Assembly (NCBI RefSeq): GCF_002563775.1
Contig: NZ_PDJO01000001.1
Span: forward strand, 186,001 to 250,000
DNA: 64,000 bases
Source of the DNA: Thioclava sp. ES.031
GTDB taxonomy: Bacteria > Pseudomonadota > Alphaproteobacteria > Rhodobacterales > Rhodobacteraceae
Direction of reading: 5' to 3'
Below are positions 8,202-61,695 of the stretch, one piece after another; the first letter of the stretch is position 1; each line of letters starts with the position of its first letter. The notes beneath the pieces are model-generated. The model did no database searches. It saw only the letters and a list, made by a program, of their open reading frames with translations, and was not told the origin of the DNA. The position numbers were made by a program, and so were the translations under genes.

Positions 8202-8225
8202 TGCTGGTATCCTTCCAGATATATG

Positions 8226-8300
8226 CCCTTCGTTGGGGAAGGGTGTCCCGCCGCCGCAGATACGCTTGCGCCCGCTCTGGCGCAAGGAGAATTTTTGGTC
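8226..8300 (-). ncRNA. Candidate serC leader RNA (serC motif)
   Basis: The 5' region of serC on the minus strand contains two clean hairpins. The first is CTTGCGCC-AGAGCG-GGCGCAAG (8265-8286, perfect 8-bp stem), preceded by an AAAAATTCT stretch. The second is CCCTTC-CCCAAC-GAAGGG (8226-8243, perfect 6-bp stem), 17 bases before the GGAAGG ribosome site. A conserved 'serC' RNA motif upstream of serC in Alphaproteobacteria is established (Rfam). I could not align this copy to the consensus, so membership is inferred from position and the two-hairpin layout. The ligand or mechanism is unknown. Confidence 0.6.
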
Positions 8301-11294: not shown

Positions 11295-13409
11295 ATGCGC
11301 AAACCTCTGATATTCCTTGGCCTGACCGCTTTGGCGGTGATCGCGGCCTTTCTGGTGGCCGATCCCGACCCCGAGCGGCTGCGCGCGCTGCGCGACAGCC
11401 TCGCCGCGTGGCGCGAGGCGCATCCGCTGGCGCTGCCCATCGGGTTCTTCGTCACTTACGTCGTGGTGACGGCGCTGTCGCTGCCCTTCGCGGTCTGGCT
11501 GACGCTGCTGGGTGCGGCGCTTTTGGGGTTCTGGCAGGGGCTGGTGCTTATCTCGTTCGCGTCCTCCATCGGGGCGCTGCTGGCCTTTCTCGTCGCGCGC
11601 TACCTGATGCGCGACTGGGTGCGCGGACGGCTTGGCCCGCGGCTGGCGAAGATCGAGAAAGGGGCGGCGCGCGACGGCGAGTTCTATCTTTTCTCGCTGC
11701 GGCTGATCCCGGTCGTGCCGTTCTTCGTCATCAACCTCGCCTTTGGGCTGACCCGGATGAAGGCCTGGAAATTCTACGCGGTCTCGCAGCTCGGCATGCT
11801 GCCCGGCACGGCCGTCTATGTCGCGGCGGGCGCGCAACTGGGCGATCTGAACAGCCTGTCGGGGATCGTCTCGCCGGGGCTGCTCGGAGCCTTCGCGGCG
11901 CTGGCGGTGTTTCCCTGGGTGGCGCGCGCGGCGCTGCGGGTCTGGGCACGCAAGCGTGCCTATCGCGGCTATGAACGCCCGGCCAAGTTCGACCGCAACC
12001 TCATCGTGATCGGGGCCGGGGCTGCGGGGCTGGTGGCCTCCTATGTCGCGGCGCAGGCGAAGGCGAAGGTGACGCTGGTGCAGGAAGGCCCGATGGGCGG
12101 CGATTGCCTGAATTTCGGCTGCGTGCCGTCGAAGGCGCTGATCGCCTCGGCTCGGGCTGCGGGCGTGGCGCGCGGCTCCGAGGCGCTGGGCGTGCGCGCG
12201 GATGTCTCGGTCGATTGGCCCGTGGTCACGCAGCGGATCTCCGAGGTGATCGCGCAGATCGCGCCGAATGATTCCGTGGAGCGCTATGAGGGTCTCGGCG
12301 TCGAGGTGATCGAGGGCCATGCGCGGCTGGAAGACCCGTGGACGGTGCGTGTAGGCGATGAGCGCCTGACCGCGCGCGGAGTGGTGCTTGCGACCGGCGC
12401 GGCGCCCGTGATCCCGCCGATCGAGGGGATCGGATCGGTCGAGCCCCTGACCTCGGACACGTTGTGGGAGACGCTCGCCGCGATGCCTGCGCCGCCCGAG
12501 AGGATGGTGATCCTCGGCGGCGGTCCGATCGGCTGCGAAATCGCGCAGGCGCTGGCGCGGCTGGGCGCGGGCGTCACCGTGGTCGAGGCGGCGGAGCGGC
12601 TGTTGATCCGTGAGGATGTCGAAGCCTCGGACGCCATCGCTGAGGCGTTGCGCGCCGATGGGGTCGACCTGAAGCTCGGCGCGAAGGCGATCCGTTTCGG
12701 ACACGATGACAGCAAATGGCTGGAGCTGGAGGACGGCTCGAAGATCGAATTCGACACGCTTCTGGTGGCGGTCGGGCGCAAGGCGCGGCTCGAAGGTTTC
12801 GGGCTGGAGGAGCTGGGCATTCCGGCGAACAAGGTGATCGAGACGAACGACTACCTCGAAACCCTCATGCCCAATATCTACGCCGCAGGCGATGCGGCGG
12901 GGCCGTTGCAACTGACCAATGCGGCGGGGCATCAGGGCTGGATCGCGGCGGCCAATGCGCTGGCCTCCCCATTCTGGCGGTTCAAGGCCCATGCCGCGCC
13001 GATCCCGCATGCGGTCTTCACCTCGCCCGAACTGGCGCGGGTGGGGATGACAGCTGCGGAAGCCGAGGCCGAGGGCGTGCATCACGAGGTCACGACCTAT
13101 CCGCTGGGCGATCTCGACCGCGCGCTGGCCGAAGGGGCGGGGCAAGGCTTCGTGCGCATCGTCACCGCGAAAGGCTCCGACAAGATTCTTGGCGCGACGG
13201 TCTGCGGGGCGCATGCGGCCGAGGTGCTGGCGGAATTCGCGCTGGCGATGCGGCACGGGTTGGGCTTGGGCAAGATCCTCTCGACGCCGCATATCTATCC
13301 CAGCTGGTCCGAAGCCGCGAAGAACGCCGCCGGGCGTTGGCGTCAGGCCCATGTGAACCCGCGCACGCTGCGGATCGCCGAGCGCTTCATGACCTGGAGG
13401 CGCGGATGA
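11295..13409 (+). CDS. TVP38/TMEM64 membrane domain fused to a MerA-like FAD disulfide oxidoreductase
   Basis: 704 residues from the ATG at 11295, which has GGGAGAG just upstream. Residues 1-220 form a VTT/DedA-superfamily membrane domain, with re-entrant-loop motifs around SLRLIPVVPFF and GMLPGTAVYVAAG. Residues 235-700 are a pyridine-nucleotide disulfide oxidoreductase: FAD loop IGAGAAG (about 241), redox-active Cys271-x4-Cys276 in GGDCLNFGCVPSK, NAD loop LGGGPIGCE, and AAGDAAG. The C-terminal motif is IYPSWSEAA in place of the usual HxHPT. It has no N-terminal heavy-metal domain and no C-terminal Cys pair, so it is not a classical mercuric reductase. The substrate is unknown; it is probably a membrane-anchored reductase acting with the genes behind it. 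Confidence 0.9.
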   Translation: MRKPLIFLGLTALAVIAAFLVADPDPERLRALRDSLAAWREAHPLALPIGFFVTYVVVTALSLPFAVWLTLLGAALLGFWQGLVLISFASSIGALLAFLVARYLMRDWVRGRLGPRLAKIEKGAARDGEFYLFSLRLIPVVPFFVINLAFGLTRMKAWKFYAVSQLGMLPGTAVYVAAGAQLGDLNSLSGIVSPGLLGAFAALAVFPWVARAALRVWARKRAYRGYERPAKFDRNLIVIGAGAAGLVASYVAAQAKAKVTLVQEGPMGGDCLNFGCVPSKALIASARAAGVARGSEALGVRADVSVDWPVVTQRISEVIAQIAPNDSVERYEGLGVEVIEGHARLEDPWTVRVGDERLTARGVVLATGAAPVIPPIEGIGSVEPLTSDTLWETLAAMPAPPERMVILGGGPIGCEIAQALARLGAGVTVVEAAERLLIREDVEASDAIAEALRADGVDLKLGAKAIRFGHDDSKWLELEDGSKIEFDTLLVAVGRKARLEGFGLEELGIPANKVIETNDYLETLMPNIYAAGDAAGPLQLTNAAGHQGWIAAANALASPFWRFKAHAAPIPHAVFTSPELARVGMTAAEAEAEGVHHEVTTYPLGDLDRALAEGAGQGFVRIVTAKGSDKILGATVCGAHAAEVLAEFALAMRHGLGLGKILSTPHIYPSWSEAAKNAAGRWRQAHVNPRTLRIAERFMTWRRG

Positions 13410-14011
13410 TCGACGCTGCTCTCCTGCCGCTGCAACGTGCCATGATGCAGCCCCCCGCCGAGGCGCTGGCCGCGCGCGGTATCCGCGCCGATCAGGTGAC
13501 GGTGGCGGGCTTCGCGCTGGGCCTTCTGGCGATCCCGGCGCTGGCGTTCCACGCCTATTGGCTGGCGCTGGCGCTGATCCTTATCAACCGGATCGCGGAC
13601 GGGCTCGACGGGGCCATCGCGCGGATCAAGGGACCGACCGATCGCGGGGCGTTCCTCGATATTGCGCTGGATTTTCTGTTCTACGCGCTGATCCCGGTGG
13701 GCTTCGCGCTTGCCGATCCCGCGCGCAACGCGCTGGCCGCGACCATCCTGATCGCGGCCTTCGTCGGCACCGGGTCGAGCTTCCTCGCCTTCGCCTCCAT
13801 CGCCGCCAAGCGCGGGATGAGCACCGATGCCTATCCGACCAAGGGCATCTACTACCTCGGCGGGCTGACCGAAGGGGCCGAGACGATCCTGTTCTTCTCG
13901 GCGATCTGCCTGTTTCCGCAGGCCTTCCCGATCCTCGCAGACCTCTTCGCCGCCGCCTGTTTCGTGACCACCGTGACCCGCTGGCTGATGGGCTGGCGGG
14001 CGTTTTCCTGA
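13406..14011 (+). CDS. CDP-alcohol phosphatidyltransferase family membrane protein (YnjF-like)
   Basis: 201 residues. The family signature is seen as DGLDGAIAR followed, after a spacer of 7 instead of 8 residues, by GAFLDIALD. All aspartates that bind the two metals are present. About five hydrophobic segments follow. The family joins CDP-diacylglycerol or another CDP-alcohol to an acceptor alcohol. The start overlaps the stop of the fusion oxidoreductase (ATGA), so the two are translationally coupled. E. coli ynjF, next to ynjBCD, belongs to the same family. Lipid product unknown. Confidence 0.85.
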   Translation: MIDAALLPLQRAMMQPPAEALAARGIRADQVTVAGFALGLLAIPALAFHAYWLALALILINRIADGLDGAIARIKGPTDRGAFLDIALDFLFYALIPVGFALADPARNALAATILIAAFVGTGSSFLAFASIAAKRGMSTDAYPTKGIYYLGGLTEGAETILFFSAICLFPQAFPILADLFAAACFVTTVTRWLMGWRAFS

Positions 14012-14022
14012 ACGGAGAGAGT

Positions 14023-15222
14023 ATGAGAAACCTCCTTGCCGCCCCGGTTCTTGCCGCGAGTTTCGCGCTGCCGCTCGCATCCCCCGCCTTCGCCGATTGG
14101 GCGCAGACCGAGGCCGAGGCGAAGGGCCAGACGGTCTATTTCAACGCCTGGGGCGGCGATCCGCGCACCAATGCGTTCATCGATTGGGTGTCCGACCAGA
14201 TGCAGGAGAAATACGGCGTCACGGTCGAGCAGGTGAAGCTGTCCGACACCGCCGAGGCGGTCTCGCGCGTGCAGGCCGAGAAGGCGGCAGGCAAGGATGA
14301 GGGCGGTGCGGTGGACCTCATCTGGATCAACGGGCCGAACTTTCTGGCGATGAAAGAGGCGGGCTTGCTGCATGGGCCGTTCGTTTCCGATCTGCCCAAT
14401 GCGAAATATCTCGACCTGTCGGAAGGCTCGGCGGCCACGACCGATTTCACGGTGCCGACCGAGGGCTATGAGAGCCCGTGGCGGCTTGCGAAATTCGCCT
14501 TCGCCTATGATGCGGAGCGGGTGAGCGATCCGCCGAAGGATATGGCGGGGCTTCTGGACTGGGCGAAGGCGCATCCGGGTCGCTTCACCCATCCCAACCC
14601 GTCGAATTTCATGGGGGCGAGCTTCCTCAAGCAGGCTTTGGTCGAGCTGGCGCCCGATCCGGCGGCACTGGCGCAGCCCGTGACGGATGAGGCCTATGCC
14701 AAGGAAACTGCGCCGCTCTGGGCGTGGTATGACGCGCTGCGCCCGCTGATGCGGCGTGAAGGCAAATCCTTCCCCGAGAATGAGAGCGTGCAGGCGCAAT
14801 TGTTGGCCGATGGCGAGGTCGATTTCGCGATGTTCTTCGATCCGGCGGCACCGGCTGCGATGATCGAGCAGGGCGTGCTGCCGCCCTCGGTCCGCGTCTG
14901 GGTGCCCGAAGGCGGCACGATCGGGAATATCTCTTACGTCGCGATCCCCTATAACGCGGCGCATCAGGCCGGGGCGGAGCTGGTCGCGAATTTCCTGCTC
15001 GATCCGGCCACGCAGGCGCATATGCAGGATATCCGCGTGCTGGGCAGTTTCTCGGTGCTTGATCCGGCAAAGCTGGATGCCGATGCGAAACAGGCTTTCG
15101 CGGACCTGCCCACGGCGCCTGCGCTGCCGACGCTGGATGATCTCGGGCCGACGCTCCCCGAGCCGCATCCGAGCTGGATGACGAAGCTCACCGAGGACTG
15201 GGCGCAGCGCTACACGAAGTGA
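14023..15222 (+). CDS. ABC transporter substrate-binding protein (YnjB-like)
   Basis: 399 residues. A Sec signal peptide (residues 1-24, ending SPAFA before DWAQ) is followed by a periplasmic binding fold starting VYFNAWGGDPRTN, typical of the YnjB branch of iron/thiamine/spermidine-type binding proteins. The start has GGAGAG 5 bases upstream and lies 11 bases behind the CDP-alcohol transferase. It would deliver the ligand to the fused permease that follows. The substrate of this branch is not established. Confidence 0.9.
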   Translation: MRNLLAAPVLAASFALPLASPAFADWAQTEAEAKGQTVYFNAWGGDPRTNAFIDWVSDQMQEKYGVTVEQVKLSDTAEAVSRVQAEKAAGKDEGGAVDLIWINGPNFLAMKEAGLLHGPFVSDLPNAKYLDLSEGSAATTDFTVPTEGYESPWRLAKFAFAYDAERVSDPPKDMAGLLDWAKAHPGRFTHPNPSNFMGASFLKQALVELAPDPAALAQPVTDEAYAKETAPLWAWYDALRPLMRREGKSFPENESVQAQLLADGEVDFAMFFDPAAPAAMIEQGVLPPSVRVWVPEGGTIGNISYVAIPYNAAHQAGAELVANFLLDPATQAHMQDIRVLGSFSVLDPAKLDADAKQAFADLPTAPALPTLDDLGPTLPEPHPSWMTKLTEDWAQRYTK

Positions 15223-15229
15223 GGGTTTG

Positions 15230-16885
15230 ATGCGGCTCGCCGGGGCGATCCTGACGCTGGTGATCGGCGCGCCGGTGCTGCTCGGCGCGGCGCTGACGCT
15301 GGCCACCGGTTTCGGGTGGCAGCCGGGGCTGGGGCGCGTCGCGCTGGGCTGGGAGGGCTTCACCGAGGCGCTGGCCGCGCCCGGTATCCTCACTTCGCTG
15401 CGGCTGACGCTGGTGACCGGTCTGGGGGCTGCGCTGATGTCGCTCGCGGCCTCGATCCCGCTGGCGCGCTGGCTGGTGACGCGGCAATCGGCGTCGCGCT
15501 GGCTGACGCCGCTGCTGGCGGTGCCCCATGCGGCGCTGGCGATCGGGCTGGCCTTCCTGATCGCGCCCTCGGGTTGGGCGGCGCGGTTGATCTCTCCCTG
15601 GGCAACCGGCTGGGAGCTGCCGCCGCAGATCGTCACTGTGGGCGATCCGTGGGGGCTGTCGCTGATCCTCGGGCTGATGCTGAAAGAGGTGCCGTTCCTG
15701 ACGCTGATGACGCTGGTCGCCGCCGCGCAGCGCCCGGTGGCGGCGCAGATGGCGGCGGGCCGGGCGCTTGGCTATGCGCCGGGCCGCGTCTGGGTGCGGA
15801 TCGTCTGGCCGCAGCTTTACCCAGCGCTGCGGCTGCCGGTGCTGATCGTGCTGGCCTTCTCGCTGTCGGTCGTCGACATGGCGCTGATTCTCGGGCCGTC
15901 GAACCCGCCGACGCTGGCGGTGCGCATCCTGCGGCTCTACGGCGCGCCGGATCCGGCGCAGGCGGTGCCCGCCTCGGCGCTGGCGGTGATCCTGCTGGTC
16001 GTGATGGGGGCGAGTGCGGCGCTTTGGATGGTCGGCGAGCGCGCGGTGGCACGGCTCGGCAAGGCGCTGATCCGCATCGGACAGCGCGGCGCATCGCGGC
16101 GGAACTGGAGCGGTGCTGGCCTGATCGGGGCGGGCGGTACGCTCGCGCTCGGATCGCTCGGCGCGCTGATCCTGTGGAGCCTCGCGAGCTTCTGGCGTTT
16201 TCCAGATGCGCTGCCCGCAGACCTCACCCTCAAACGCTGGGCGAGCGCCGACTGGGCGGGGCCTGCACTGACCAGCCTGACCCTTGCGCTTGTCTCGACC
16301 GCGCTGGCGCTGATCCTCGCGATGCTCTGGCTGGAAAGCGAGGACCGCTCCGGCAAGCGCCTGCCGCTCGGTGCGCTGATCGTCCTGCCGCTTCTGCTGC
16401 CGCAGATCGGGTTTCTGCAGGGGCTGACCACCGGGTTTCTCTGGCTCGGCCTACCGCCGGGAGTGGTTGCCGTGACATGGGCCGAGCTGCTCTTCGTCTT
16501 TCCCTATGTGATGATCGCGCTGGCCGGACCGTGGCGCGCGCTCGACCCGGCGCATTTGGCCAGTGCGGCGAGCCTCGGGGCCGGGCCGACGCGCCGCCTG
16601 CTGCGGATCAAGCTGCCGATGCTGCTCGGCCCGATCTGTGCGGCGGCGGCGATCGGGGTCGCGGTGTCGGTCGCGCAATATCTCGCCGTTCTGCTGCCCG
16701 GGGCGGGGCGCGTGCAGGCGCTGGCGACGGAGGCCGTGGCGCTGGCCTCGGGGGCGGATCGGCGGCTGGCCGCGATCCTTGCGCTGATGCAGGCGGCGCT
16801 GCCATGGGTGGGTTTCGCGCTGGCGCTTGCCGTGCCGGCATGGTGGCATCGCAACCGGCGCGGCTTGCGCGGAGGAGTGGCATGA
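15230..16885 (+). CDS. ABC transporter permease, two fused domains (YnjC-like)
   Basis: 551 residues with about twelve hydrophobic segments in two halves (roughly 1-270 and 290-540). Each half carries a cytoplasmic EAA-type loop: GRALGYAPGRVWVRIVWPQ near residue 185 and SAASLGAGPTRRLLRIKLP near residue 450. A single fused permease replaces the usual pair. ATG at 15230 is preferred over the TTG three bases earlier. It starts 7 bases after the binding-protein stop and overlaps the ATPase gene by 4 bases. Confidence 0.9.
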   Translation: MRLAGAILTLVIGAPVLLGAALTLATGFGWQPGLGRVALGWEGFTEALAAPGILTSLRLTLVTGLGAALMSLAASIPLARWLVTRQSASRWLTPLLAVPHAALAIGLAFLIAPSGWAARLISPWATGWELPPQIVTVGDPWGLSLILGLMLKEVPFLTLMTLVAAAQRPVAAQMAAGRALGYAPGRVWVRIVWPQLYPALRLPVLIVLAFSLSVVDMALILGPSNPPTLAVRILRLYGAPDPAQAVPASALAVILLVVMGASAALWMVGERAVARLGKALIRIGQRGASRRNWSGAGLIGAGGTLALGSLGALILWSLASFWRFPDALPADLTLKRWASADWAGPALTSLTLALVSTALALILAMLWLESEDRSGKRLPLGALIVLPLLLPQIGFLQGLTTGFLWLGLPPGVVAVTWAELLFVFPYVMIALAGPWRALDPAHLASAASLGAGPTRRLLRIKLPMLLGPICAAAAIGVAVSVAQYLAVLLPGAGRVQALATEAVALASGADRRLAAILALMQAALPWVGFALALAVPAWWHRNRRGLRGGVA

Positions 16886-17517
16886 GCCTTGAGTTGATCG
16901 ATCTGAGCCTGACCGCGCCCGGCGCCTCCGCCCCGCTCTTCGTGCCGCTGTCGCTGGTCGTGGCGCCCGGAGAGACGGTTTGCCTGATGGGGCCGTCCGG
17001 GATCGGCAAGTCGAGCCTGCTCGCCCATATCGGGGGCCATCTGCCGCGGGGGTTCACGGCTTCGGGCGATGTGCGGCTCGATGGTGAAAGCGTCACGCAT
17101 CTGCCCGCTGAGAAACGCGGCATCGGGATGCTGTTCCAGCAGGCGCAGCTTTTCCCGCATCTCTCGGTCGGCGACAATCTGGCCTTCGGGCTGTCGGTGC
17201 AGGTGAAGGGCAAGGTGGCCCGGCGCGCGGCGGTGGAGGCCGCGCTGGAACAGGCCGGGCTTGCAGGCATGGCGGATCGCGATCCGGCGACGCTATCGGG
17301 CGGGCAGCGCACCCGCGCGGCGCTGATGCGTACGCTGCTGGCGCGGCCGCGTGCGGTTCTGATCGACGAACCCTTCGCCGCGCTGGATGCGGAGTTGCGG
17401 GCTGAGATTCGCAGCTTCACGCTGCAGCATCTTGAGGCTGAGCGTATCCCCTGCCTGATGGTCAGCCACGATCCGGAAGATGGCGCGGCGGCTGCACGCC
17501 GGATCGCGTTGGGCTGA
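16882..17517 (+). CDS. ABC transporter ATP-binding protein (YnjD-like)
   Basis: 211 residues. Walker A GPSGIGKSS (about residues 37-45), Q-loop in LFQQAQLFPHLS, signature LSGGQRTRA, Walker B AVLIDEPFAALD and switch His in VSHDPED. It powers the importer encoded by the two preceding genes. ATGA overlap with the permease and GGAGGAG 6 bases before the ATG indicate coupled translation. At 211 residues it lacks the regulatory C-terminal extension of larger CUT-type ATPases. Confidence 0.93.
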   Translation: MSLELIDLSLTAPGASAPLFVPLSLVVAPGETVCLMGPSGIGKSSLLAHIGGHLPRGFTASGDVRLDGESVTHLPAEKRGIGMLFQQAQLFPHLSVGDNLAFGLSVQVKGKVARRAAVEAALEQAGLAGMADRDPATLSGGQRTRAALMRTLLARPRAVLIDEPFAALDAELRAEIRSFTLQHLEAERIPCLMVSHDPEDGAAAARRIALG

Positions 17518-59562: not shown

Positions 59563-61695
59563 ATGATCGACGTCGAAGACCTGATCGCGCTCGTCCGCAA
59601 TTATAATCCCAAGACCGATGCGGATCTGATCCGGAAGGCCTATGCCTACGGAAAAGACATGCATGAAGGGCAGTTCCGGCATTCGGGCGAGCCCTATTTT
59701 TCGCATCCCGTCGCGGTGGCGGCGATCCTGACCGAGCAGCGTCTGGACGATGCGACCATCGTCACCGCCCTTCTGCACGACACGATCGAAGACACGCGCT
59801 CGACCTATGGCGAAGTGTCCGAGATGTTCGGCGAGCAGATTGCCGAGCTGGTCGATGGCGTCACCAAGCTGACCAACCTGCAACTTTCGAACGCGGCCTC
59901 GAAACAGGCGGAGAACTTCCGCAAGCTGTTCATGGCGATGTCGAAAGACCTGCGGGTGATCCTCGTGAAACTCGCCGACCGCCTGCACAACATGCGCACG
60001 ATCCGCTCGATGCGGGCCGAGAAACAGGCGCAGAAAGCGCGCGAGACGATGGAGATCTACGCGCCGCTCGCAGGCCGGATGGGTATGCAATGGATGCGCG
60101 AGGAGCTCGAAGACCTCGCCTTCAAGGTGCTCAATCCCGAGGCGCGCACCTCGATCATCCGCCGCTTCGTCAGCCTGCAGAAGGAAACCGGCGATGTGAT
60201 CCCGAAGATCACCGCCGACATCCGCGCGCTGCTCGAAGACGAGGATATCGACGCGGACGTGTTCGGGCGCGCGAAGCGGCCCTATTCGATCTGGCGCAAG
60301 ATGGAGGAGAAGCAGCTCACCTTCTCGCGCCTGTCGGATATCTATGGCTTCCGCGTCATTACCCGCACCGAGATGGACTGCTACCGGGTGCTGGGCCTGA
60401 TCCATCACCGCTGGCGCGCGGTGCCGACCCGGTTCAAGGATTACATCAGCCAGCCGAAGACGAACGGCTACCGCTCGATCCACACCACCGTTTCGGGGCG
60501 CGACGGCAAGCGCGTCGAGGTGCAGATCCGCACCCGGCAGATGCACGAAGTGGCCGAGGCGGGCGTCGCGGCACACTGGTCCTATCGCGATGGCGAGCGG
60601 GCGCAGAACCCCTTCGCGGTCGATCCGGCGAAATGGCTCGCCTCGCTCAGCGAGCGGTTCTCGGACCCCGACGGCGATGGCGATCACGAGGAGTTTCTCG
60701 AGAACGTCAAGCTTGAGATGTATTCCGATCAGGTCTTCTGCTTCACCCCGAAAGGCGATGTGGTGAAGCTGCCCAAGGGCGCGACTCCGATCGATTTCGC
60801 CTATGCGATCCACACGCGGATCGGCAATAGCTGCGTCGGCGCGAAGGTCGACGGGATCCGCGTGCCACTTTGGACCCGGTTGAAGAACGGCCAGTCGGTC
60901 GAGGTGATCACCGCCTCGGGCCAGCGTCCGCAGCTGACCTGGCTCGATATAGTGGCGACCGGGCGCGCCAAGGCCGCGATCCGCAAATCGCTGCGCGAGG
61001 AAGATCGCGACCGCTTCATCAAGCTGGGGCAGGAACTGGCGCGGGTGGCCTTCGAGCATGTCGGCCGCCGCGTGACCGAAAAGGCGCTGCGCACCGCCGG
61101 CAAGGCGCTGGGGATCGGCGATCAGGACGAGGTTCTCGCCCGGCTCGGCTCCGCCGAGCTCGCGGCCTCGGACGTGCTGGACGCGCTTTATCCGGAACTC
61201 GCGCAACGCCGCGAAGGCGCCGAGATCGAGCCGACCCGCGCCGTGCTGGGCCTCGCCGCCGATCAAAGCTTCCGCCGCGCCGATTGCTGCCAGCCGCTGC
61301 CGGGCGAGCGCATCGTCGGCATTACCTATCGCGGCAAGGGCGTGGTGATCCACGCCATCGACTGTCCCGCGCTCGAAGAGTTCGAGGATCAGCCTGAACG
61401 CTGGGTCGATCTGCATTGGAAGACCGGGCAACACCCGCCCGCCTATACCGCGACCCTGAAGGTCACGATCTCGAACGACGCGGGCGTGCTGGGACATATC
61501 TGCACATTGATCGGCCAGCAGAAGGCAAATATTTCGGACCTCAACTTCGTGGAGCGCAAGCCGGACTTCTATTCGGTTCTCGTCGAGGTCGAACTGTGCG
61601 ATGCAGAACATATGCATCGCCTGCTTACCGCCTTGGAGGCGGAGAGCGACGTGGCGCAGGTGGAGCGGATCAGAAACCTGTCGCGCAAACCCTGA
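59563..61695 (+). CDS. Bifunctional (p)ppGpp synthetase/hydrolase (Rel/SpoT)
   Basis: 710 residues. The HD hydrolase domain has intact HSGEPYFSHPVAVAAIL and LLHDTIEDT. The synthetase domain has WRKMEEKQLTFSRLSDIYGFRV (two blocks) and KTNGYRSIHTTV. TGS (VFCFTPKGDVVKLPKGATPIDFAY) and C-terminal ACT domains follow. Because both catalytic sites look complete, it should both make and degrade (p)ppGpp, the usual single RSH of Alphaproteobacteria. It is co-directional with rpoZ and the DUF2062 gene. Confidence 0.95.
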   Translation: MIDVEDLIALVRNYNPKTDADLIRKAYAYGKDMHEGQFRHSGEPYFSHPVAVAAILTEQRLDDATIVTALLHDTIEDTRSTYGEVSEMFGEQIAELVDGVTKLTNLQLSNAASKQAENFRKLFMAMSKDLRVILVKLADRLHNMRTIRSMRAEKQAQKARETMEIYAPLAGRMGMQWMREELEDLAFKVLNPEARTSIIRRFVSLQKETGDVIPKITADIRALLEDEDIDADVFGRAKRPYSIWRKMEEKQLTFSRLSDIYGFRVITRTEMDCYRVLGLIHHRWRAVPTRFKDYISQPKTNGYRSIHTTVSGRDGKRVEVQIRTRQMHEVAEAGVAAHWSYRDGERAQNPFAVDPAKWLASLSERFSDPDGDGDHEEFLENVKLEMYSDQVFCFTPKGDVVKLPKGATPIDFAYAIHTRIGNSCVGAKVDGIRVPLWTRLKNGQSVEVITASGQRPQLTWLDIVATGRAKAAIRKSLREEDRDRFIKLGQELARVAFEHVGRRVTEKALRTAGKALGIGDQDEVLARLGSAELAASDVLDALYPELAQRREGAEIEPTRAVLGLAADQSFRRADCCQPLPGERIVGITYRGKGVVIHAIDCPALEEFEDQPERWVDLHWKTGQHPPAYTATLKVTISNDAGVLGHICTLIGQQKANISDLNFVERKPDFYSVLVEVELCDAEHMHRLLTALEAESDVAQVERIRNLSRKP

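Follow-up and report, generated by a model that had tools for sequence, protein, structure and literature searches.

A fused variant of the YnjBCD–YnjF module in Thioclava sp. ES.031, combining an importer, a CDP-alcohol phosphatidyltransferase and a membrane flavoprotein in one operon

In Thioclava sp. ES.031, five genes on the forward strand of a 64,000-nucleotide stretch (hereafter the window; contig NZ_PDJO01000001.1, positions 186001–250000 of a single-contig genome of 4.02 Mb) encode a fusion of a VTT (TVP38/DedA) membrane domain with a flavoprotein, a YnjF-type cytidine diphosphate (CDP)-alcohol phosphatidyltransferase, and the components of a YnjBCD-type ATP-binding cassette (ABC) importer (Table 1). 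All five open reading frames are present and free of internal stops where a reading made from the letters alone (the sequence-only reading) had placed them, and the tight packing it described is exact: ATGA overlaps join the fusion to the ynjF-like gene and the permease to the ATPase, with gaps of 11 bp between the ynjF-like and binding-protein genes and 7 bp between the binding-protein and permease genes. Among named database entries, the binding protein and the fusion have their best relatives in Thioclava and other Rhodobacteraceae. The operon is a fused variant of a real, conserved and uncharacterised module, in which the coupling of importer and lipid enzyme is strong.

Table 1. Features of the operon (window positions; protein lengths in amino acids, aa)
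Feature	Position	Strand	Length	Basis
VTT (TVP38/DedA) + disulfide-oxidoreductase-fold flavoprotein fusion	11295..13409	+	704 aa	Pfam, NCBIfam
Redox motif Cys271-x4-Cys276	12105..12122	+		Alignment, conservation
Tyr668 at the catalytic-His position of disulfide reductases, then conserved Glu673	13296..13313	+		Alignment, conservation
ATGA start/stop overlap, fusion gene/ynjF-like gene	13406..13409	+		Sequence
YnjF-type CDP-alcohol phosphatidyltransferase	13406..14011	+	201 aa	Pfam, model
Catalytic motif D65-x2-D68-G-x2-A-R-x7-G-x3-D85-x3-D89	13598..13672	+		Sequence; Asp invariant in alignment
YnjB-type periplasmic binding protein	14023..15222	+	399 aa	NF008633
YnjC-type double-length ABC permease	15230..16885	+	551 aa	NCBIfam halves, hydropathy
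ATGA overlap, permease/ATPase	16882..16885	+		Sequence
YnjD-type ABC ATPase	16882..17517	+	211 aa	Walker A, LSGGQ, Walker B

In the fusion, Pfam places a VTT domain at residues 64–180 (PF09335, 81.6 bits against a gathering threshold of 33.9), Pyr_redox_2 at 235–548 and Pyr_redox_dim at 570–678, so that a VTT domain and a disulfide oxidoreductase with a Cys-x4-Cys motif do share one polypeptide, as proposed. Mercuric reductase (MerA) has a C-terminal Cys pair; the fusion has none, because its only other cysteines are at 414 and 637, and its N-terminus is the VTT domain rather than a metal-binding domain, both of which the sequence-only reading had noted correctly. The architecture itself is already published: among the fusions of COG0398 DedA proteins the VTT–flavoprotein is the most frequent, with the same Pfam set (PF09335, PF07992 and PF02852), and in the available text of that paper (PMC10127716) it is given as a statistic only, with neither partner genes nor active site analysed. 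New here is Tyr668, a tyrosine in the place of the catalytic histidine.

Lipoamide dehydrogenase and glutathione reductase carry a catalytic His-Glu pair. In the window protein Tyr668 replaces the His and Glu673 is retained: the residue aligned with Tyr668 is His in the lipoamide dehydrogenases 2eq6 and 2eq7 but Tyr in MerA 5x1y. This tyrosine is found in 172 of 173 sequences (the window protein, 12/12 YnjB-linked, 39/40 from other loci and 120/120 database relatives), the lone exception being a paralogue (L111:8755-11001, genome G244) that has also lost both redox cysteines and is probably not catalytic in the usual way. The flavoprotein scores below the curated cut-offs for mercuric reductase (TIGR02053, 357.6 vs 454.45 bits) and lipoamide dehydrogenase (TIGR01350, 344 vs 408.8 bits), keeps the Tyr/Glu arrangement and lacks the C-terminal Cys pair, and we therefore file it under neither. 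It resembles MerA in the Cys-x4-Cys motif and the tyrosine, and differs in its VTT domain, the absent Cys pair and its TIGR02053 score. The Tyr-for-His exchange fits a soft-metal-type reductase, as which the protein may work, although the tyrosine does not name the substrate.

The second gene product matches CDP-OH_P_transf (PF01066) at 35.8 bits against a gathering threshold of 22. Four catalytic aspartates with an AR in the motif are the signature of CDP-alcohol phosphatidyltransferases, and here all four (D65, D68, D85 and D89) are invariant across 23 sequences, with the AR present. In the predicted structure (predicted local distance difference test, pLDDT, 85.8) the best fold matches are phosphatidylinositol-phosphate (PIP) synthases (seven chains, E 2.9e-4 to 7.8e-4), followed by DIPPS and AF2299, with PSS and PgsA weaker. 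Fold and Asp motif are thus common to YnjF, the PIP synthases (6wmv, 6h59 and 5d92) and AF2299, although the AR-x7-G spacing is one residue shorter in YnjF than in AF2299. A phosphatidyl-transfer role for YnjF is supported by the conserved motif and the PIP-synthase-like model.

The importer is likewise complete. The binding protein is YnjB by the curated model NF008633 (489.9 bits, cut-off 203), Pfam finds SBP_bac_8 in it and ABC_tran in the ATPase, and the double-length permease and short ATPase follow directly 3′ of its gene. The permease has no Pfam match; weak NCBIfam permease matches in each half and 12 hydrophobic segments in a simple hydropathy scan bear out the fused permease that had been read from the sequence. 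The binding-protein model is confident (pLDDT 91.5). Its top Foldseek matches are a ferric-binding protein, Salmonella STM0429 (a 2-aminoethylphosphonate binder), the hexose-phosphate binder AfuA and PotD-type proteins; in VIA-align 2 glycoside binders rank first, and UgpB (glycerophosphocholine) and sulfoquinovosyl-glycerol binders follow at a distance of about 1.5 Z units or less. We therefore rejected a ligand assignment from the fold, with its ties among many ligand classes, and the suggestion that a predicted structure would give the ligand did not work out. W43, W101, W153, N103 and N106 are invariant in both YnjB alignments (E150 in the first only), which suggests a kept pocket without indicating its ligand. 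None of 50,697 phage records matched the binding protein; 193 plasmid records did, 81 of them covering at least 80% of the query.

Escherichia coli carries the same families, and these are not scattered, as the sequence-only reading had it: in K-12 MG1655 ydjX-ydjY-ydjZ-ynjA-ynjB-ynjC-ynjD-ynjE are contiguous on one strand, with ynjF next on the opposite strand. With YnjF and a VTT/DedA protein beside YnjBCD, the window operon is of this ydjXYZ-ynjABCDEF type. The E. coli cluster differs in having two unfused VTT proteins (YdjX and YdjZ), no flavoprotein, ynjF on the other strand, and the additional YdjY, YnjA and YnjE, homologues of which BLAST did not find near the window operon (reading frames of at least 80 aa, in a stretch reaching about 7 kb upstream and 6 kb downstream). 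In the literature searched (open-licence PubMed Central) we found no function for ydjXYZ-ynjABCD or ynjF, in agreement with the earlier statement that none is established, and no paper naming both "arsenosugar" and "TVP38". In the available parts of the sources, YnjBCD (COG4134-4136) is termed an uncharacterized transport system (PMC9207381), ydjXYZ-ynjABCD is tabulated as one FNR-regulated unit (PMC3688515), and the effect of BaeR on ynjABCD is weak and possibly indirect (PMC2731931).

The coupling within the module is clearest in the gene neighbourhoods. We searched 299 proteobacterial genomes with the YnjB model, of which 41 scored above the cut-off, and fetched stretches of about 20 kb around YnjB for all 41; several of these stop at contig ends, so that absences there are weak. 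Permease and ATPase homologues adjoin YnjB in 41/41 loci, YnjF is near in 30/41 and the fusion in 13/41 including the window; the arrangement is more than chance. Four stretches around below-cut-off binding proteins (L079–L082), with neither YnjF nor the fusion, were excluded from the counts. Another 80 named loci, in which YnjF occurs in 50 and the flavoprotein in 16, bring the total to 121 YnjB loci, with at least one repeat (L154 and G279). At one locus (L043, genome G267) the permease of a YnjB relative is split into two genes and YnjF is not nearby.

The coupling extends beyond the loci. YnjF occurs in 46/299 genomes, a well-separated group since no matches fall between E 1e-12 and 6e-43, and is present in 39/41 YnjB genomes vs 7/258 others (Fisher p 3e-39; all p-values given here ignore relatedness). 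Collapsed to families, with the total taken as 74, the largest family label shown, the contrast is 13/14 vs 2/60 (p 1e-11). In 9 of the 39 co-occurring genomes YnjF lies outside the YnjB stretch, so the coupling is more than operon hitch-hiking and points to a link in function, not in position alone.

For the flavoprotein the picture is broader. The VTT–flavoprotein was found in at least 51 genomes (43 with a fusion and 8 with an abutting pair), a lower bound, as at most three candidates per genome were scored and distant VTT neighbours were uncounted; a further pair, at L219, stands outside this count. It is over-represented with YnjB (22/41 vs 29/258, p 4e-9) but not specific to YnjBCD, 29 of the 51 genomes having been found without YnjB. 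Importer and CDP-alcohol transferase do belong together, and for the flavoprotein the co-occurrence that the sequence-only reading proposed to look for is seen as enrichment without specificity. All 51 genomes carry either YnjB/YnjF or ArsS/TIGR04283, against a background of 157/299 (p 5e-17), and for the wider flavoprotein group the figure is 119/124 (p 4e-42).

The second partner set belongs to arsenosugar clusters (ArsS TIGR04167, TIGR04282, TIGR04283 and ArsM-like genes), whose TIGR04282/TIGR04283 transferases are presumed to conjugate arsenosugars. These clusters have the VTT–flavoprotein family in common with some YnjB loci, and also DUF547, DUF3047, TIGR04282/TIGR04283 and TIGR03169-like genes. 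Among 40 further loci taken from flavoprotein matches (L084–L123; nine in YnjB genomes, some ending at contig ends), BLAST detected DUF547 in 10, ArsS in 9, TIGR04283 in 6, TIGR04282 and ArsM-like genes in 5 each and DUF3047 in 4; an ArsM-like gene scanned from this set fell under the family cut-offs. Among YnjB loci, BLAST detected DUF547 in 6/41, TIGR04282 and TIGR04283 in 3/41 and 5/80 (sampled and named loci, respectively), TIGR03169-like proteins in 6/41 and 3/80, and DUF3047-like proteins in 2/41 and 1/80. The overlap is real and concerns a minority of YnjB loci. In a second set of 20 stretches, 16 of them picked for TIGR04283 without YnjB, TIGR04283 stands with TIGR04282 in 12, with flavoprotein relatives in 4 and with ArsM-like genes in 3; in the eight stretches from the window's own family, TIGR04283 stands alone or only near ABC genes, and the overlap of the toolkits is therefore partial. 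Unlike the arsenosugar clusters, the window genome has no match to ArsS (TIGR04167) and no TIGR04283.

Two kinds of YnjB locus deserve separate mention. On a Vreelandella contig (L199:11472-16087), YnjBCD is followed on its own strand by TIGR04283, TIGR04282, a VTT–flavoprotein and a TIGR03169 oxidoreductase. Twelve of the 80 named loci (L171, L172, L173, L175, L176, L178, L191, L192, L198, L204, L208 and L210) encode a radical-SAM-like protein with a CX3CX2C motif, mostly directly upstream of YnjB, and YnjF is found in none of these 12 stretches. The one such protein scanned, that of L175, has SPASM over the Pfam cut-off and Radical_SAM just under it, and matched no NCBIfam family.

ArsS occurs in 77/299 genomes, 0/41 with YnjB vs 77/258 others (p 3e-6); YnjB and ArsS lie mostly in different families, so this exclusion may reflect lineage. 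TIGR04283, which occurs in 113/299 genomes and accompanies ArsS in 75/77, avoids YnjF (4/46 YnjF genomes vs 109/253 others, p 4e-6). In the window's own family (f1, 23 genomes) 14 have YnjF, 8 TIGR04283, none both and one neither. Both YnjB genomes without YnjF have TIGR04283, in G086 about 4 kb from YnjB, and across the 121 YnjB loci YnjF occurs in 80, TIGR04283 in 8 and both in none (0/8 vs 80/113, p 1e-4). Thus TIGR04283 genes replace YnjF at some YnjB loci. A tree of the 43 fusions does not divide them in two by partner label: the label changes four times, and well-supported branches force at least two of these changes (four rows counted as YnjB come from genomes also carrying TIGR04283); the label is nevertheless strongly clustered.

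The best reading of the operon, which we put forward tentatively, is an importer-fed phosphatidyl conjugation of a polyol-like compound coupled to a MerA-like redox step. YnjBCD would import a small polar compound, and YnjF would transfer this compound, or an alcohol formed from it, to CDP-diacylglycerol, yielding a phospholipid-like conjugate; the acceptor would be polyol-like or sugar-phosphate-like. With NAD(P)H, Cys271/Cys276 and Tyr668, the flavoprotein at the membrane would reduce a soft centre, be it a metal, a metalloid or a thiol adduct, on the imported compound or on a by-product; its VTT domain would serve as membrane anchor and may also move lipid or substrate. What we infer here is the direction of transport, the class of acceptor and the action of the flavoprotein on the same compound. 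The sequence-only reading had a transported substrate reduced at the membrane and tied to a lipid headgroup; the Asp motif and the PIP-synthase-like model speak for the second half, and reduction at the membrane we likewise only infer.

Several observations weigh against this reading. The fusion is not nearby in 28/41 YnjB loci, and in 5/41, all of one family (f43, enterobacterial to judge by similarity to E. coli) and most E. coli-like, with YnjA and YnjE also there, the VTT protein is single and the flavoprotein missing; the E. coli-like form can thus do without the redox step. Seven genomes have YnjF and no YnjB, and none of the partner genes sought were found at 15 YnjF loci outside YnjB stretches (L124–L138). 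YnjF is far under the cut-off of the curated PIP synthase model (NF045883, 35 vs 170 bits), and the binding-protein model scarcely discriminates between ferric, polyamine, hexose-phosphate, glycoside and glycerophosphocholine binders. Finally, a genetic-interaction screen in E. coli, in its available text, groups ynjABCDEFI with Suf iron-sulfur (Fe-S) assembly (PMC3930520), which hints at another function.

It is possible, if somewhat unlikely, that the neighbourhood is looser: importer and lipid enzyme would cooperate, and the VTT–flavoprotein would confer soft-metal or metalloid resistance independently of them, its co-transcription being fortuitous. The 29 genomes with a fusion or abutting pair and no YnjB, the 28 fetched stretches without the fusion, the partner changes in the fusion tree and the MerA-like tyrosine all point this way. 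Set against this, of the 17 YnjB genomes that carry a fusion, 13 have the two genes no more than about 10 kb apart, and an independent gene sits poorly with the finding that every one of the 51 VTT–flavoprotein genomes, and nearly all of the wider group, carry one of two partner sets.

A sulfur or Fe-S/molybdopterin system, in which YnjBCD would import a sulfur compound, the flavoprotein would keep it reduced and YnjE/YnjA would relay the sulfur in E. coli and relatives, is improbable. The grouping with Suf, the annotation of ynjE as a molybdopterin synthase sulfurtransferase and the inclusion of both ydjXYZ-ynjABCD and ynjE in the FNR table (PMC3688515, as far as available) favour it; YnjE and YnjA, however, were found in only those five E. 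coli-like loci, a sulfur relay has no role for a phosphatidyltransferase, the partner that is most constant, and a motif scan found no FNR-like box upstream of the window operon. A selenium system, suggested by genomes G173 and G212, where selD and YnjB are about 8 kb apart, and by the relatives, at some YnjB loci, of the TIGR03169 oxidoreductase found fused to SelD (one, at L199, confirmed by family model), is very improbable, and we rejected a role through SelD since SelD is not enriched in YnjB genomes (18/41 vs 86/258 others, p 0.22; 23/41 without a match).

Returning to importer-fed conjugation, a more specific form of it, which we consider quite improbable, would make YnjBCD–YnjF the counterpart of arsenosugar biosynthesis: a sugar- or polyol-linked soft-element compound would be taken up instead of being made via ArsM and ArsS, handled by the same Tyr-type membrane flavoprotein and conjugated by YnjF into a phospholipid, a counterpart to the conjugation presumed for TIGR04282/TIGR04283 transferases with arsenosugars. 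The cargo might alternatively be a related nucleoside-, sulfur- or selenium-containing polyol. If this were true, the E. coli cluster, so long without an assignment, would encode a lipid pathway that has gone unrecognised. The cluster in any case has a testable core, an importer and a phosphatidyltransferase kept together even when unlinked, and a widespread VTT–flavoprotein family is tied to either of two partner sets, the arsenosugar genes being one. For an orphan operon this defines a concrete target, a missing lipid or metabolite to be searched for.

Scans for promoters and terminators gave nothing above chance. FNR control of the window operon was considered and rejected: the two FNR-type matches in the window are at chance level (19 of 100 shuffles reach two), and only one of them falls in the operon, within the ynjF-like gene. 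Ten other reading frames of the window were run through family scans, and eight, which have no family, are probably on the wrong strand. A RelA/SpoT-type gene is located at 59563-61695 (+), and a serC leader RNA (RF00517, 70.7 bits) at 8202-8253 on the reverse strand, upstream of the operon region.

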